Below, in pieces: positions 23,510 through 32,248 of a stretch of DNA of 64,000 nucleotides (positions are counted from its first letter, which is position 1; each line of letters begins with the position of its first letter). The notes beneath the pieces were generated by a model that searched no databases, was not told the origin of the DNA, and worked only from the letters and a program-made list of their open reading frames with translations. The translations under genes were made by a program, and so were the position numbers. Source of the DNA: Henriciella pelagia (lineage in GTDB: Bacteria > Pseudomonadota > Alphaproteobacteria > Caulobacterales > Hyphomonadaceae). Location: assembly GCF_002088945.1 (NCBI RefSeq), contig NZ_NCSU01000007.1, positions 930,001 through 994,000 of the forward strand, written 5' to 3'.

Positions 23510-25342
23510 TTAGGTCTTCACCGCGTCTTCAAGTGACGGCAGCGGATCGTTCTGCAGGACAGATTCGCGGTCCGGCCTCATCACATTCGCGAAAAAGGAC
23601 AGGATGATGGCGGGCAAGCCAAGCGCTGCCGCCATGATGAAGAACTGCGAATAGCCCGCATTCGTCGCCAGTTCGACGCTGACATCGTCGCCCATCGCCT
23701 GCACCTCTGCCCAGCTGACGCCGCTGAACAGCAGCACCATGACGCCGGATGTCCCCGCGACAAGTTTCGGGCCGAGTGAATAGATCGAGCTGAAGATGGC
23801 GTATTGGGTGCCGGCAAAGGCCTTGGCCACCATGGTCGACATGAAGGCGACAAACACGGTGCCGGCATAGCCGCCGGCGATATTGTCAGCCGTAACAGCA
23901 ATAAAGAGCGGCACGAGCGTTTCGGGTGACTGGTGGACCAGCCAGGCGAAGGTGAGATTGCCGAGCACCGAAACGACGGCGCCGATGATCAGCGACCAGC
24001 GCAGGCCGAGCTTTAGCGCCGAGAGACCGGCTAGCGCGACGCCGACAAAGATGATCCACGGACCATAGGTGCCGCTGACAATGCCGATATCGGCCGGGGA
24101 ATAACCCATCTGCGTATAGGCGGGCTTGGCCATGATGCCCATGACGATGTCGGACAGGCGGTAGGACGAGACGAAGAGCAGGATCAGCAGGGCGACCCAA
24201 CCATGACGCCAGAAGAAATCGAGGAAGGGGGCGAAAGTCGGGTTGCGCATGACTGGCGCGTCCGCTGTCAGCCTGCGGATGAAGGGGATCGCAATGGCGC
24301 AGGCCATTATGGGGGCGGCAGCAATGTAGATCGCCCAGAGCGCGACGTCGCCGCGTTTGACCCTGATGCCCATCGCGTCCAGGGCCGCTGGCAAGGCTGT
24401 GCCGATGATGGCTGCGATGACCGCTATGGCGAGATAGGCGCCCACCGCGAAGCCGATGCCTATGAACAGGCTCGATATGGAGAAGTCGGTGCCTTCGACG
24501 GGGTTGCGAAGCGCCAGGAGCGAGGCGGCCAGGAAACCGATGCCAGCCAGGGCGGCGACGCCGTAGCTCAGCCATGACAGGGCGTTCAACAGCATGTTCG
24601 CGAAGCTGCCCGGCTCTGTAATGCCTGCGAAGGCACCGAAGGCGGAGGCAAAGCCGATGGTCAGGAGAACAACGCCCGCAGCAGCGGCGGCCTGCAGGCC
24701 CCATTTGCGGTCCCAGATCGCGAAGACGAACGCGCCGAGCGCCATGGTGAAGGCCATCGCCCAATAGGCAACAGGGAAGCTTGCGACACCGGCGATGACG
24801 AGTGCCACACCGCCCGAGATCACCATGCCGACCTTGTAGCCATACTGGTAGGCGGCCGCGAGCGTCGACTGTTCGTCATCATTCGCGGCTGCTTCGATCC
24901 GCCAGGCGTCGATGCCGATATCCTGCGTAGCCGAGCTGAAGGCGATGAGGAAGGAGAAGAGGGCGGTGGCCGCGAGGCTGGAAGTCGGATTGGAGAAGCC
25001 GAGGCCGACCATGGAGAGAGCGATGCCGATCTGCGCGACGAAGATCCAGGCGCGGCGGCGGCCAAACAGCCGGGTGAGGCCGGGCGGGTTGAACCGGTCC
25101 ACCAGCGGGGCCCAGATGAATTTGAAGGAATAAGCGAGGCCAAACCAGGAGAAGAAGCCGATCAGGGCTTCGTCGATCTTGCTCTCTTTCAGCCAGACCG
25201 ACAGCGTCGAGAAATAGAGCAGGAAAGGCAGGCCGGCGGTGAAGCCGAGCACCAGCATCATCGCCATCTTGGGCTGGGCGAAGAGTTTCAGCGTCTCTGC
25301 GAAGCTGCGCTGCTGCGGCGCTTCACGGGCGGCGCTGCTCAT
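23510..25342 (-). CDS. ampG: AmpG family muropeptide permease
   Basis: An MFS transporter that brings anhydro-muropeptides into the cytoplasm for peptidoglycan recycling. The 610 residues contain ~14 hydrophobic spans. The N-terminal signature is typical of AmpG: GFTAGLPFLLYFSTLSVWL, then YSFKFIWAPLVDR and SSATQDIGIDAWRIE; near the C-terminus GGYAGTVFVAFMSTM. The ATG at 25340-25342 overlaps the stop of the upstream hybrid kinase (ATGA-type, 4 bp), so the two are translationally coupled. In many bacteria AmpG activity sets beta-lactamase induction; no beta-lactamase is visible here. Confidence 0.92.
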   Translation of the reverse strand: MSSAAREAPQQRSFAETLKLFAQPKMAMMLVLGFTAGLPFLLYFSTLSVWLKESKIDEALIGFFSWFGLAYSFKFIWAPLVDRFNPPGLTRLFGRRRAWIFVAQIGIALSMVGLGFSNPTSSLAATALFSFLIAFSSATQDIGIDAWRIEAAANDDEQSTLAAAYQYGYKVGMVISGGVALVIAGVASFPVAYWAMAFTMALGAFVFAIWDRKWGLQAAAAAGVVLLTIGFASAFGAFAGITEPGSFANMLLNALSWLSYGVAALAGIGFLAASLLALRNPVEGTDFSISSLFIGIGFAVGAYLAIAVIAAIIGTALPAALDAMGIRVKRGDVALWAIYIAAAPIMACAIAIPFIRRLTADAPVMRNPTFAPFLDFFWRHGWVALLILLFVSSYRLSDIVMGIMAKPAYTQMGYSPADIGIVSGTYGPWIIFVGVALAGLSALKLGLRWSLIIGAVVSVLGNLTFAWLVHQSPETLVPLFIAVTADNIAGGYAGTVFVAFMSTMVAKAFAGTQYAIFSSIYSLGPKLVAGTSGVMVLLFSGVSWAEVQAMGDDVSVELATNAGYSQFFIMAAALGLPAIILSFFANVMRPDRESVLQNDPLPSLEDAVKT

Positions 25343-26805
25343 GCGGCGCCTGACTTGCGGGACGTCCAGTCGGTGGCGAGGCGGCGGAGCGCTTCTGCGT
25401 CGAGCGGCTTGGCGGCGACCCCGTCTGCACCGGCAGCGCGTGCGCGGCGTTCAATGTCAGGATTGATCTCGGCGGAGATGGCTATGATTGGCATACTGTG
25501 TCCAGCGCTCCTCAGCGTCTTCATCGCTTCATACCCATCCATGATCGGCATCCGCAGATCCATCAGGATGAGGGCGGGCTTCAGACGCGAGGCGATATCG
25601 ACTGCGTCGCGGCCCGTCGATGCCACACTGACCGAGAATCCGGCCGATTCCAAGGCACGTTGCGCAATCAGCGTGTTGACCGGATTGTCGTCTGCAATGA
25701 GGACGCGGCCGGTCGCTGTCTGCGTCTCGGTCTCGTCGGGCGTGGCGCTGCCTTCCATGGCGAGTTGTGCGCGCCGGATCAGCGAGCGATGGCGCAAAGG
25801 ACGTACCAGCCAGCCGCTTGCGCCCATATCGTGGAACCGGCTGAGCAGGCCCCTGTCTTCGGGGCGTATGACAACGAGGGTCGGCGCGATCCGGACAAGG
25901 GCGCGCAGTGAGCGTTCCGGCAGTTTGGCGTCTGCCAGGATGAGGTCCGGCCGGACGCGGCGGGCGTGCAGGGCAGACTCGGTGGCAAGCACGCTCGCCC
26001 CGGCAGAGATGAGCGTGCTTGCGGCGGCAAGGCCGGTGCTGGGCGCGAGGCCTGCTAGCGCGACGCGCGCATCGAGATGGGCTTCGGGGTCTGCCGACTG
26101 TTCTGCGGCGATCAGGGGGACGCGGACGGCGAATTTCGTGCCGAGGCCGGGCGCGCTTTCGAGGCTGATGCTGCCGCCCATCAGTTCGGCCAGTTTCTTG
26201 ACGATGGCAAGGCCGAGGCCGACGCCGCCATCCTTCTGGGCGTCGCCCGCCGAGGTCTGCCGGAAGGCGTCGAACAGGGCAGGCTGATCATCCGGCGCGA
26301 TGCCGGGGCCAGTGTCGATAATGTTGAAGACAAGCTCGTCATCTTCTGCGTCGATATCGACAAGCACGCCGCCAGCTTCGGTGAATTTGAGCGCATTGCC
26401 GACAAGGTTGAACAGGATCTGGCGAAGCTTGCCGCCATCCGTCACGACGTCTGTCGGGACATGGCTGCGGGTGCGGACCGCCACGTCGAGACCGGCGCTG
26501 TGGGCGCGCGGCGAAAGCAGTTCGGTGACCTCGCGGGCCAGCTCTGTGACGCGGACATTTTCATGCTCGATCTCGCTTGGGGCGCTGTCGAGGCGGGCAA
26601 AATCGAGGATGTTGTTCAGAAGGTCGAGGAGGCGCGAACCGGACAGGCGAATGGCTTCGGCATATTCCTTCTGCGCCGGGTCGAGTTCTGTCTCCAGGAG
26701 CAGGGAGACCGTGCCGAGAATGCCATTGAGCGGCGTGCGGATTTCGTGGCTGGTGGTCGCCAGAAAGGCCTGCTCGGGCGAGAGTTTGCCGGATGTATCT
26801 GTCAT
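25339..26805 (-). CDS. Hybrid histidine kinase with pseudo-receiver and receiver domains (ShkA-like)
   Basis: A 488-residue soluble kinase with no N-terminal sensor domain. The HisKA domain starts at once (H20 in TTSHEIRTPLNGIL). The HATPase domain has FNLVGNALKF (N137), DTGPGIAP and GVGLGLAIVKKL. A first receiver-like domain (~245-350) is degenerate: it keeps D292 but has Arg-Pro (335-336) where receivers have Lys-Pro. The last receiver (~366-485) is intact (D372/D373, D416, K466). This DHp-CA-REC1-REC2 order matches Caulobacter ShkA, whose REC1 binds c-di-GMP and releases autoinhibition; from memory, ShkA is also encoded next to ampG. ATG 26803-26805 is chosen over a GTG three codons upstream. 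Kinase call sure; ShkA orthology likely but untested. Confidence 0.85.
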   Translation of the reverse strand: MTDTSGKLSPEQAFLATTSHEIRTPLNGILGTVSLLLETELDPAQKEYAEAIRLSGSRLLDLLNNILDFARLDSAPSEIEHENVRVTELAREVTELLSPRAHSAGLDVAVRTRSHVPTDVVTDGGKLRQILFNLVGNALKFTEAGGVLVDIDAEDDELVFNIIDTGPGIAPDDQPALFDAFRQTSAGDAQKDGGVGLGLAIVKKLAELMGGSISLESAPGLGTKFAVRVPLIAAEQSADPEAHLDARVALAGLAPSTGLAAASTLISAGASVLATESALHARRVRPDLILADAKLPERSLRALVRIAPTLVVIRPEDRGLLSRFHDMGASGWLVRPLRHRSLIRRAQLAMEGSATPDETETQTATGRVLIADDNPVNTLIAQRALESAGFSVSVASTGRDAVDIASRLKPALILMDLRMPIMDGYEAMKTLRSAGHSMPIIAISAEINPDIERRARAAGADGVAAKPLDAEALRRLATDWTSRKSGAA

Positions 26806-26870
26806 GACGCGCACAGGACTAGCCGAAAAGCCTGATGAATCGCTTAATTCTGCGCGTGGATGTTACAGGT

Positions 26871-28415
26871 TCAGCGCGCGAGGGATGCCGGGCTGGAGAT
26901 GGGCTGATCGCCGGGAATGCGACGGCGATAGGACAGCGCCTCTGCAAGGTGAACGCGCCTGACGCCGCCTGCGCCATCAAGGTCTGCGATGGTGCGGGCG
27001 ACTTTCAGGACGCGGTGATAGGCGCGCGCCGACAGGGCGAGCCTGGATGCGGCATCGGACAGGAGGGCGCTGGCGCGCTCGTCGGGCGATGCAATCTCCG
27101 AAATCTGGCTGGCGGGGGCGTCCGCATTGACCGGCCGGCGGCCTTCCCCCGCATGTGAATAGCGGGCAGTCTGGATGTCCCGGGCCGTACGGACGCGGGC
27201 GGCCGCCTCGGATGTGCCTTCCGATGGCGCGGGCAGGGCGAGGTCCATGGCGGTAACGGGCGGGGTATCGAAGAAGAGGTCGATGCGATCGAAGAAGGGG
27301 CCGGAAATGCGTGACTGATAGGACTGCGCGCAGGTTGGGCCCCGCTTGCAGGCGCCGTCGCCAGGACCGCCGCCGCAGCGGCAGGGGTTCATCGCCGCAA
27401 TGAGCTGGAACCGGGCCGGATAGCGCACATGGCGATTGGCCCGTGAAATGACGACTGAGCCGTCTTCCAGGGGCTGGCGAAGACTGTCGAGAACCTGCGC
27501 CGGGAATTCCGGGAGTTCATCAAGGAAGAGCACGCCGTGATGGGCAAGCGAGACTTCGCCCGGTCGGGCCTTGATACCGCCGCCGACAAGCGCGGCCATG
27601 GAGGCCGAATGATGCGGGGCGCGAAAGGGGCGCTGGCGGGACAGCTGCCCGCGCTCGAGCAGGCCGGCCACTGACTGGATCTGCGAAACTTCGAGCAGTT
27701 CGCTTGCCGAAAGTGGGGGGAGCAGGCCGGGAAGCCGCTGGGCCAGCATGGATTTTCCTGAGCCGGGTGGCCCGCAGAAGAGGAGGTTGTGGCCGCCCGC
27801 AGCCGCGATTTCGAGAACGCGCTTTGCGCCCTCCTGGCCCTTGACGTCGGCAAGGTCCGGCACGGCTGCGGGTTGCGCAAGCTCTCCTGCGATGGGCGGG
27901 ACAAGGCTGGCCCGGCCGGCAAAGTGGTTGATCATGGAAATGAGGCTCGGCGCGGCGAGTGCGCCTTCGCCTGCCCACGCCGCTTCAGGCCCGCAGGCTT
28001 CAGGACAGATCAGGCGCAGATCCATCGCTATGGCAGCCATCGCAGCGGGCAGGACGCCGAGTGTCTGGCCCAGGGCGCCGTCCAGTGAAAGTTCCCCAAT
28101 GGCGGCGTGACCGTCGAGCGAATCCGGTGCGATCACGCCCATGGCGGCGAGCACGCCGAGCGCAATGGCGAGGTCATAATGGCTGCCTTCCTTGGGCAGG
28201 TCGGCTGGTGCGAGATTGACGGTGATGCGCTTGGGCGGCAGGGCGAGCCCGATGGCAGAGAAGGCGGCGCGCACACGTTCCCGGCTTTCGCCAACTGCCT
28301 TGTCAGGCAGGCCGACAATGGTGAAGAAGGGATTTCCGGACGTGATCTGCACCTGCACATCGACCGGCTTTGCCTCAATCCCTTCGAATGCAAATGTCGT
28401 GATCCGGCAAACCAT
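26871..28415 (-). CDS. comM: YifB/ComM family Mg-chelatase-like AAA+ ATPase
   Basis: A 514-residue AAA+ protein. In naturally competent bacteria ComM is a branch-migration helicase aiding integration of DNA; its role in non-competent species is unclear. An N-terminal ChlI-like domain (PFFTIVGLPDKAVGESRERV) precedes Walker A GPPGSGKS (215-222) and Walker B GVLFLDELPEF. A cysteine cluster (NPCRCGGGPGDGACKRGPTC) and the C-terminal segment SARAYHRVLKVARTIADL are typical. The ATG is at 28413-28415. It lies just upstream of the hybrid kinase in the same direction (65-bp gap), so co-transcription is possible. Confidence 0.93.
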   Translation of the reverse strand: MVCRITTFAFEGIEAKPVDVQVQITSGNPFFTIVGLPDKAVGESRERVRAAFSAIGLALPPKRITVNLAPADLPKEGSHYDLAIALGVLAAMGVIAPDSLDGHAAIGELSLDGALGQTLGVLPAAMAAIAMDLRLICPEACGPEAAWAGEGALAAPSLISMINHFAGRASLVPPIAGELAQPAAVPDLADVKGQEGAKRVLEIAAAGGHNLLFCGPPGSGKSMLAQRLPGLLPPLSASELLEVSQIQSVAGLLERGQLSRQRPFRAPHHSASMAALVGGGIKARPGEVSLAHHGVLFLDELPEFPAQVLDSLRQPLEDGSVVISRANRHVRYPARFQLIAAMNPCRCGGGPGDGACKRGPTCAQSYQSRISGPFFDRIDLFFDTPPVTAMDLALPAPSEGTSEAAARVRTARDIQTARYSHAGEGRRPVNADAPASQISEIASPDERASALLSDAASRLALSARAYHRVLKVARTIADLDGAGGVRRVHLAEALSYRRRIPGDQPISSPASLAR

Positions 28416-30105: not shown

Positions 30106-30615
30106 TTATTCCGGCAGGATCACGCTATCGATGACGTGGATGACGCCATTCGAGGCCTTCACGTCGGCGCTGATGACCGCCGCGCCTTCAACTGTCACGG
30201 CACCGTCGCTGTCTTTGGTGATGGTGATGGTGTCGCCGGACAGGGTTTCGACTTCGCTCGTGCCCTCAGCGATGTCGCCGGCCTTGATCTTGCCGGATAC
30301 GACATGAAGCTTGAGGATGTCCTGAAGCTGATCCTGGTTCTCGTCCATGAGCAGCGTGTCGAGCGTGCCGTCAGGCAGGGCGGCGAAAGCGTCATTGGTC
30401 GGGGCGAAGACGGTGAACGGGCCGTCGCCTTTAAGGGCTTCGACAAGTTCGGCTTCGGTGACGGCGGTGACCAGCGTCGAGAAGGTGTCATCGGACGCTG
30501 CCGTGTCGACGATGTCTTTCTTGTCCGCTTTCTCCATATGGTGCTCGGCATGGGCGAGGCTGGCGCCGCCAGCGAAGAGGGCGGTGACGGCAACTGCTGT
30601 AAAGAGGGATTTCAT
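30106..30615 (-). CDS. Exported fasciclin (FAS1) domain protein
   Basis: 169 residues: a signal peptide (MKSLFTAVAVTALFAGGASLAHA) then a single FAS1 domain, an extracellular adhesion-type fold. Conserved FAS1 segments: GDGPFTVFAPTNDAFAAL (H1 region), ILKLHVVSGKIKAGD and the final VIHVIDSVILP. FAS1 proteins of this size are secreted or periplasmic; their ligands are poorly known. The ATG at 30613-30615 has GGAG upstream. It is monocistronic, with its own terminator, and diverges from the META lipoprotein. Confidence 0.92.
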   Translation of the reverse strand: MKSLFTAVAVTALFAGGASLAHAEHHMEKADKKDIVDTAASDDTFSTLVTAVTEAELVEALKGDGPFTVFAPTNDAFAALPDGTLDTLLMDENQDQLQDILKLHVVSGKIKAGDIAEGTSEVETLSGDTITITKDSDGAVTVEGAAVISADVKASNGVIHVIDSVILPE

Positions 30616-30794
30616 GAAGGGTCTCCATTTGGGTGATTGATAGCCTCAATACGGCGGAGGAGTGATGCTGGATCATTAAAAAATAAATAAAAACAATGAT
30701 CTAGTGGATTGGATGGACCCGTGCTTGTACAAGGCCATACGATCCGGGTTAGAAGATAGATCACTTGCTCGCAGATTCGTGAAAGGTGCCGCTC

Positions 30795-31616
30795 ATGCGT
30801 CGACTTCTCATCCTACCGCTCGCGCTCGGCCTGATCGCTTCCTGCGAGACAGACAAGGCGAAGGAAACGGCACCGGGGCCTGCCGAGAGTGAGGCGAGCG
30901 CCGGTGCAGACATGGCGGAGAGTGCGAGCGTGGAAGCGATGAAGATTACCGGGTCGCTCTCCTATCGCCAGCGCATCGCGCTGCCACCAGATGCCGAGGC
31001 TAGCATTCTCGTTTATGAGGAAGGCCCGGCCGACATCGCCCGCGAGGAGATCGCGAAAGAAACCTTCGCGCTGAACGGCCGGCAGGTGCCGATCCCGTTT
31101 CAGGTGGTTGTACCAGCGGATATCGAGCTGGAGCGCGACCGCCTGTCGCTTCGCGCGCAGATCCATGATGGGGCGGGTGCGCTGATCTGGACGAGCGATA
31201 CGGCGAACATTTTCGACCGCATCGAGGGCCTCTACGAAGCGGGCAATGTCAATCTCGTGCCGACAAAGGCAACAGCGGTTTCCATGGACGAGCTGACCGC
31301 GCATGAGTGGATGGCAGCGACGCTGAATGGCGAGCCCCTGTTCCAGAGTTCGCAGATCACGTTGAACTTCGAAGATGACGGCCGGGTGAGCGGATCGTCA
31401 TCGTGCAATTCCTATACGGGCAGCTTCAAGCTGAATGCCGGACGGCTGACCTTCGGACCGCTCGCCATGACGCGCCGGGCCTGTTTCCCTCAGGCGGTGA
31501 TGGACCAGGAGCAGGATTTTGTCGAGGTGATGGGCGACAATCCACACGTCTCGCTCGACGAGAATGGCCTGCTGACGCTGACCGGCGAAGACGGACGAAG
31601 CCTGACGGCGCGCTAG
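30795..31616 (+). CDS. Lipoprotein with YbaY-like and META domains
   Basis: 273 residues. A lipoprotein signal (MRRLLILPLALGLIASC) puts the lipid cysteine at residue 17. Residues ~48-150 resemble the YbaY (PF09619-type) domain: ITGSLSYRQRIALPPDAEA, then beta-rich text to LIWTSD. Residues ~165-270 are a META/HslJ domain: WMAATLNGEPL, VSGSSSCNSYTGSF, LTFGPLAMTRRAC. META domains occur in HslJ-type outer-membrane lipoproteins linked to novobiocin or heat response. ATG 30795 is preferred over GTG 30786 because GAAAGGTG then sits at ribosome-site distance. Its stop overlaps the stop of the convergent BON gene by 4 bp. Confidence 0.83.
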   Translation: MRRLLILPLALGLIASCETDKAKETAPGPAESEASAGADMAESASVEAMKITGSLSYRQRIALPPDAEASILVYEEGPADIAREEIAKETFALNGRQVPIPFQVVVPADIELERDRLSLRAQIHDGAGALIWTSDTANIFDRIEGLYEAGNVNLVPTKATAVSMDELTAHEWMAATLNGEPLFQSSQITLNFEDDGRVSGSSSCNSYTGSFKLNAGRLTFGPLAMTRRACFPQAVMDQEQDFVEVMGDNPHVSLDENGLLTLTGEDGRSLTAR

Positions 31617-32248
31617 CTGCCGGAGCCGCCGAGCAGCTCGCTGTCGCTGTTGCTACTGGAGGCGTTGAACTGCGCCGGTGTTGGGCGCACCTTCACATAG
31701 GAGACGACGCGGTCGACACCGCCGACGACGCTCGCGCGTTCGGCGGCCTCTTTCAGTTCCGCATTGGTCTGGGCGATCCCCATCAGATAGACCACGCCAT
31801 TATAGGTCTCGATATTGTAATTGATGCTTTTCACGTTCTTGGCGGCAATGAGCGAGGCGCGGACGCGGGCCGTGATGAGTTCGTCGGATGCGTTGGCGAA
31901 AAAGCCGCCCGGCTGTTCGATGACAATCTCATTGGCGACATCGCGTGTGCGGGTGGCTGTCCAGGCAATGTCCTCTGCGCGAACACGATGTTCTGGCGTC
32001 GCAACGCGTCCGGACAGCAGGACGAGACCTTGCACAACTTCGACATCGACTTCACCAAAGCCGCTTTCATTCAGCAGCATGGCCTTGATCTGGTTGGATA
32101 CGGTGGAGTCGTCGACCGCTTCACCGAGCGAGCGCTCCTGAACGGAAGCGACGCCGACAGCCCCAGCGGTTCCGATGACCGCAGCAGCACAGCCTGAAAC
32201 GAGGATTGGCGCTGTCAGGGCGAGCGCCATAAGCGGTGATCTGATCAT
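31613..32248 (-). CDS. BON domain lipoprotein (DolP/YraP-like)
   Basis: 211 residues. The lipoprotein signal MIRSPLMALALTAPILVSGC is followed by two BON domains (VSNQIKAMLLNESGFGEVDV onward; ITARVRASLIAAKNVKS onward) and a Ser/Gly-rich tail. This is the layout of DolP (YraP), an outer-membrane lipoprotein that helps keep envelope integrity. It lies directly after rsmI and yraN, the same gene company as in E. coli, where diaA also takes part; no diaA is present here. Confidence 0.9.
   Translation of the reverse strand: MIRSPLMALALTAPILVSGCAAAVIGTAGAVGVASVQERSLGEAVDDSTVSNQIKAMLLNESGFGEVDVEVVQGLVLLSGRVATPEHRVRAEDIAWTATRTRDVANEIVIEQPGGFFANASDELITARVRASLIAAKNVKSINYNIETYNGVVYLMGIAQTNAELKEAAERASVVGGVDRVVSYVKVRPTPAQFNASSSNSDSELLGGSGS

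Follow-up and report, generated by a model that had tools for sequence, protein, structure and literature searches.

How can a kinase that seems to retain the binding site for a second messenger be kept silent when the off-switch described for its Caulobacter counterpart is missing? This question arises at a gene in the 64,000-nucleotide stretch of Henriciella pelagia DNA analysed here (the window: contig NZ_NCSU01000007.1 of assembly GCF_002088945.1, positions 930,001 to 994,000), where an open reading frame on the minus strand at 25339..26805 encodes, by its translation, a 488-amino-acid hybrid histidine kinase. In the published mechanism of Caulobacter ShkA, a cell-cycle kinase activated by cyclic di-GMP (c-di-GMP), a DDR motif in the linker between the receiver domains REC1 and REC2 is the off-switch, competing with c-di-GMP for REC1, and altering DDR leaves the kinase active without c-di-GMP (as described in PMC7010744 and PMC7288161). 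A family that keeps the c-di-GMP site minus the DDR switch has either another lock or a differently tuned kinase, and the window kinase could reveal which parts of a second-messenger kinase are ancestral and which are replaceable. On the basis of directly observed orthology, gene order, residue conservation, absence of DDR and a protein in the same genome that resembles the regulator TacA, we consider it likely that the window gene, an orthologue of ShkA, works as in Caulobacter, with a different off-state.

Orthology with Caulobacter ShkA

To map differences in ShkA motifs across the order Caulobacterales, we collected orthologues at a threshold of 1e-60, which gave matches in 178 of 200 genomes; the other 22 may hold weaker ones. 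For genomes with several matches (two or three) the best was taken, and 130 orthologues were used: 41/41 from the window's family (f1), 36/39 from the family holding ShkA (f2), and 33/38, 5/22 and 15/38 from three further Caulobacterales families (f3, f4 and f5), sampling of f4 and f5 being thin and weighted towards better matches. Among the genomes without a match at this threshold, 16 of the 20 listed belong to f4, a family in which the kinase may be undergoing decay or have been lost. As shkA has already been surveyed as a dimorphism gene across Caulobacterales (PMC12700997), no novelty attaches to its distribution there; a literature search found no text on ShkA motifs from Hyphomonas, Henriciella or their family.

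Searched against 177635 distinct PDB sequences, the window kinase matched ShkA (6qrj) best and over its full length (9e-85, 289 bits; next entry 176 bits). The same entry ranked first for the AlphaFold2 model of the kinase in Foldseek (4.6e-39) and by VIA (Z 31.4 across 448 residues, runner-up 23.5), the root mean square deviation of 11.2 in the latter probably reflecting different domain placement. Best hits are reciprocal: a Caulobacter-type ShkA (L126, 99% identity with 6qrj across 480 columns) finds the window kinase first in the window's genome (294 bits, second 172), and the window kinase finds ShkA first in two Caulobacter-type genomes (289 and 291 bits vs 158). A tree of 85 rows was built from 70 of the 130 orthologues (12 hand-chosen, the rest random), ShkA and 14 other kinases. 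A branch with a Shimodaira–Hasegawa-like approximate likelihood ratio (SH-aLRT) support of 97 separates the orthologues and ShkA, 71 locus rows in all, from the 14 others, and each of the five families is likewise set apart by a branch, weakly supported in the case of f3 (40). Among named relatives, six Henriciella loci come closest (67-69%); identity with Caulobacter ShkA is 41-42%. Sequence, reciprocal hits, tree, gene order and model together identify the window kinase as its genome's orthologue of ShkA. The preliminary description of this locus had proposed a probable ShkA homologue and named an alignment as a test; in the tree the kinase groups with ShkA and not with the 14 other kinases, and together these results raise the proposal from homology to orthology.

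Like ShkA of Caulobacter crescentus/vibrioides (6QRJ, 6QRL), the window kinase is arranged as DHp-CA-REC1-REC2, with no input domain ahead of DHp and an intact REC2. The reading frame begins with an ATG at 26805 and stops at 25339, with an alternative in-frame GTG start at 26814. DHp (HisKA) covers residues 12-74 (26584..26772; PF00512, 3.9e-20) and includes the phospho-accepting His20 (26746-26748), aligned with ShkA H23 in a column that is His in 130/130 orthologues, and CA (HATPase_c) covers residues 123-231 (26113..26439; PF02518, 7.6e-30). REC2 covers residues 368-475 (25381..25704; Response_reg, PF00072, 1.1e-26) and has the features of a functional receiver, namely the acidic pair D372/D373 and the equivalents of ShkA Asp430 and Lys480, Asp416 (25558-25560) and Lys466 (25408-25410); Asp416, Lys466 and D373 are identical in every orthologue (130/130), and the place of D372 holds Glu or Asp. 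No Pfam model matched the stretch between HATPase_c and Response_reg at E 0.001. Here the AlphaFold2 models have a five-strand, five-helix REC fold, the pseudo-receiver REC1 (residues ~247-350, 25756..26067), which aligns with ShkA REC1; the mean predicted local distance difference test (pLDDT) score is 89 for REC1 modelled alone and 77 for the whole kinase. Strand 1 of REC1 is followed by no acidic pair (RVALAGLA vs RVLIADDN in REC2). Asp292 still stands at the old phospho-acceptor place, the ShkA D297 column, which is Asp in 7/41 f1, 36/36 f2, 32/33 f3 and 15/15 f5 sequences. The layout without an input domain had been read correctly from the letters, as had H20, R335-P336, D416 and K466, which align with ShkA H23, K341-P342, D430 and K480.

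The predicted c-di-GMP site and the REC1–REC2 linker

Across the 130 orthologues, conservation is lower in REC1 than in any of the other three domains (mean top-residue frequency 0.40 vs 0.67, 0.62 and 0.62), and the few columns that are held are mostly those of the ligand site. The c-di-GMP contacts in 6QRL are R324, Y338, I340, P342, R344, S347 and Q351, a list that we took from the review table in PMC7288161; in the window kinase these seven places read R, W, V, P, R, S and R. Arg318 (25852..25854) corresponds to R324 and is Arg in 125/130 and Lys in 5/130 orthologues; Trp332 (25810..25812) corresponds to Y338 and is Trp in 36/41 and Tyr in 5/41 f1 sequences. In Arg335-Pro336-Leu337-Arg338 (25792..25803), Pro336 and Arg338 are the contacts P342 and R344, both 130/130, and Arg335 replaces the Lys of Lys-Pro (ShkA K341), being Arg in 41/41 f1 and Lys in 36/36 f2 sequences. 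Ser341 (25783..25785) corresponds to S347 (Ser in 124/130) and Arg345 (25771..25773) to Q351 (Arg in 106/130). The window kinase therefore shares R324, P342, R344 and S347 with ShkA and differs by Y338W, I340V, K341R and Q351R, so that the proposed check of the ShkA contact residues came out in favour at four places and against at Tyr338, a residue whose change to Ala interferes with c-di-GMP binding in ShkA (PMC7010744).

Only five of the 126 REC1 columns reach 90% or more, R324 (125), G334 (130), P342 (130), R344 (130) and S347 (124), and four of these five are published contacts (hypergeometric p 1.7e-5, a guide only because neighbouring columns are non-independent). The DDR-less sampled families behave alike (61 sequences of f1, f4 and f5; 4/6 such columns are contacts, p 5e-5), as does f1 alone (5/23 columns at the 90% threshold, p 0.002), in which contact columns average 0.95 vs 0.56 and 0/20000 permutations were as high. 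As a control we used the 39 of 73 unrelated kinases with both receivers aligned: the triad R-[YWHF]-R occurs in 0/39 of these non-orthologous two-receiver hybrid kinases, R324 in 0, R344 in 4 and S347 in 0. These patterns suggest that REC1 of the window kinase would bind c-di-GMP. A broader feature, an arginine-rich second half of REC1, had been proposed from the sequence, and all eight arginines are present. R314, R318, R335, R338 and R345 are each Arg in 41/41 f1 sequences and R323 in 35/41, but R340 (3/41 Arg) and R344 of the window numbering (1/41 Arg) are not conserved; the arginine-rich half is therefore partly peculiar to the window species, and we dropped it as a whole feature.

In apo ShkA the DDR residues sit within the c-di-GMP site (PMC7288161). 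The corresponding linker of the window kinase (residues 351-365, 25711..25755; pLDDT <50 at 353-364) is short and without DDR, an absence that had been suspected and that holds for the whole sampled family. The linker carries DDR or DER in 0/41 f1, 36/36 f2, 16/33 f3, 0/5 f4 and 0/15 f5 sequences, and four changes on the 71-row tree are needed to account for this distribution. In 34/41 f1 sequences the REC2 Asp lies at a spacing of 35 from R344, compared with 43 in ShkA and 39 to 56 in f2, which makes the window linker 8 residues shorter than that of ShkA (35 vs 43). At about DDR's place lies an acidic tetrad, Asp357-Glu358-Thr359-Glu360 (25726..25737), and in f1 its first two places, which precede the REC2 motif by 13 and 12 residues, hold an acidic residue in 38/41 and 33/41 sequences, in a linker so short and variable that its alignment is uncertain. 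The f1 linkers are 29% acidic and 4% basic, and f1 proteins overall are 13% acidic.

By the DDR criterion the window kinase falls outside the ShkA set as first drawn: the orthologue set of PMC7010744 was, as described there, checked for DDR, and 0/41 f1 sequences would qualify, although by gene order and tree the window gene is the same gene as the DDR-bearing orthologues. That study retained four DDR-less relatives in its tree for comparison, so the existence of DDR-less proteins is not new. Kinases at the ShkA locus of f3, f4 and f5 share the locus and clade of the window kinase, and R-Y-R is kept without DDR in 15/15 f5 and 17/33 f3 sequences (all 17 RYR); the triad and the lock therefore evolve apart. 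The five sampled copies from f4 read K-W-R and have no DDR. We put forward, tentatively and as an idea that may well not hold, that sensor and lock are separable, the site being kept across most of the order and DDR missing in several lineages (f1, sampled f4, f5 and 17/33 f3), with an acidic tether [DE]-E-x-E whose distance from REC2 hardly varies, an R314/R335-enriched pocket and a mostly Tyr-to-Trp change replacing it in f1.

Proposed mechanism and rival explanations

The comparisons make the window kinase a likely c-di-GMP-gated phosphorelay kinase. In the mechanism that we propose, c-di-GMP would bind the arginine-lined alpha4-beta5-alpha5 face of REC1 (R318, W332, P336, R338, S341 and R345) and thereby free the kinase core, allowing His20 to be phosphorylated; the phosphate would then move from His20 to Asp416 on REC2, to a single-domain histidine phosphotransfer (Hpt) protein of the ShpA kind and on to the sigma-54 activator TacA. 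In the off-state the shorter acidic linker, [DE]-E-x-E in many f1 sequences, may occupy the same arginine pocket, or may lock more weakly. The direction of c-di-GMP control, the acidic tether and the phosphotransfer to these named partners are what we infer from the comparisons. The constant position of the acidic pair leads us to favour, only slightly, a tether that does the locking over a lock that is gone or weaker.

Several results weigh against this mechanism. The DDR lock is absent from the window kinase and all 41 f1 sequences, and the f1 stem branch of the tree is long (1.0), which suggests altered constraint. REC1 alone is a generic receiver fold, for which 6qrl stands at Foldseek rank 27 and is not among the best 50 VIA matches in the PDB, and its model has an alpha3 helix (297-304) that ShkA REC1 lacks. 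The Tyr338 contact is not kept, although Trp332 is a conservative change, and unrelated receivers share P342 (36/39) and Tyr/Phe at 338 (31/39), so that the specific signature is R324, R344 and S347. The missing DDR and the long branch would also suit a ShkA orthologue without c-di-GMP control, either always active or set by expression and proteolysis, whose REC1 arginines are kept for intra-kinase contacts only; the erosion of the old REC1 Asp in f1 and the activity of ShkA DDR mutants without c-di-GMP (PMC7010744) point the same way. We regard such a loss of control as unlikely, however, given that ligand contacts are over-represented among the conserved REC1 columns, that sampled DDR-less f5 and f3 kinases keep the triad and that the linker retains an acidic pair in one position, which suggests function. 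Moreover, ShkA D369N, although strongly active without c-di-GMP, still binds it and is partly stimulated (PMC7010744).

A change in the ligand specificity or sign of REC1 by Y338W and K341R, towards another nucleotide or towards c-di-GMP as an inhibitor, would account for the prevalence in f1 of Trp (36/41) and Arg (41/41) at 338 and 341 and for R314 being 41/41 too; five f1 members nevertheless keep Tyr, and we consider this explanation quite improbable. Trp and Arg are conservative swaps for stacking and phosphate contacts, which we counted against it. In addition, the REC domain of VpsT binds c-di-GMP with a W[F/L/M][T/S]R motif (PMC7288161). That the kinase is instead an unrelated BarA/TorS-type hybrid kinase, resembling ShkA in layout only, can scarcely be credited: generic hybrid-kinase models (TorS, BarA and others) do match in the NCBIfam scan, where the best 25 of 145 matches all fall below cut-off and include no ShkA model, but reciprocal best hits, tree, gene order and triad all oppose it, and we rejected it on the tree and the reciprocal hits. 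A c-di-GMP-controlled ShkA orthologue with a different off-state remains the reading that we prefer.

Candidate phosphorelay partners, N termini and gene neighbourhood

The window's genome has 12 GGDEF matches and candidates for both partners of the proposed relay. A sigma-54 regulator with REC, AAA and HTH_8 domains (L219) ends in Ala-Gly and is 63% identical to the Caulobacter-type protein L217, other compared sigma-54 proteins being ~40% or less outside its own family. L217 likewise ends in Ala-Gly and has the length of TacA; from length, Ala-Gly tail and exclusion, we infer that L217 is TacA, and we class L219 as a TacA-like regulator. The sole PF01627 match in the genome at E 0.1 (L250) finds its best match in a single-domain Hpt protein of Caulobacter-type genomes (45% over 71 residues), and L250 is a candidate ShpA. 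TacA and ShkA carry an Ala-Gly tail (PMC7010744). The window kinase ends in Gly-Ala-Ala instead of Ala-Gly (25342..25350, GAA in 34/41 f1 sequences), and this tail, by analogy with that of ShkA, is possibly a ClpXP-type signal. Separately, a short open frame (353 amino acids) with a sigma-54 activator domain (L226, G000:C14:824497-824985) has close relatives in two other searched f1 genomes and none above 40% among the compared Caulobacter-type sigma-54 proteins.

The kinases at the f3, f4 and f5 loci differ from the window kinase in an N-terminal extension with a median of 110-141 amino acids. A stretch of at least 80 amino acids, counted from the earliest in-frame Met with GTG and TTG starts ignored, is present in 31/33 f3, 5/5 f4 and 15/15 f5 sequences, and in 2/41 f1 and 1/36 f2 sequences. 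Profiles of the extension link f4 with f5 (best E 7e-21) and with f3 (7e-13), and link f3 with f5 weakly (1.6e-5 and 9e-5, finding 11/33 and 5/15 sequences); no match to them was found in f1 or f2, including the longer N termini of two f1 proteins (L119 and L122) and one f2 protein (L132). Weak PAS matches occur in 2/7 Pfam-scanned proteins with a long N-terminal frame, both under the curated cut-off. N-terminal length class needs five changes on the tree, and the missing input domain may be a derived loss in both f1 and f2.

Downstream of the kinase gene on the minus strand lies ampG, of the muropeptide permease family (23510..25342; NCBIfam TIGR00901, 5.4e-128, above cut-off), and upstream a yifB/comM-like gene for a Mg-chelatase-type ATPase (26871..28415, minus strand; PF01078, PF13541 and PF13335), which stands ahead of the kinase in most orthologues; of the 39 f1 loci with enough flank, 34 have it there on the strand of the kinase gene. 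The preliminary description had called for a survey of the ampG pairing across Caulobacterales, and ampG proves to be next on the same strand in 41/41 f1, 36/36 f2, 30/33 f3, 5/5 f4 and 11/15 f5 loci, in line with its position downstream of shkA in C. crescentus (PMC7010744). Order and strand across the families show that the shkA-ampG pairing is ancestral. The 4-base-pair overlap (25339-25342), correctly noted in the preliminary description, is an f1 trait and perhaps allows translational coupling: measured to the nearest possible start codon in the ampG frame and not to the annotated start, it occurs in 40/41 f1 loci, one of 30 in f3 and 0/36 in f2, where the gap is instead 32-44 base pairs in 31/36.

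An ancestral gene order means that the pairing alone cannot indicate a link between c-di-GMP and peptidoglycan recycling, as had been suggested from the overlap; that link is unsupported beyond adjacency, and we dropped the ampG neighbourhood as evidence for it. In the literature search ShkA and AmpG appeared together only in PMC7010744 and one unrelated review, and PMC13046382, on recycling in Caulobacter, contains no mention of 'c-di-GMP'. The window AmpG (23510-25342) has 610 amino acids against a 417-position model, its residues 22-583 matching model positions 2-415, with ~150 extra internal residues. Elsewhere in the window, near gshB, are genes for a fasciclin-domain protein, a META/YscW-domain protein and a protein with two BON matches (30106-30615, 30786-31616 and 31613-32248).

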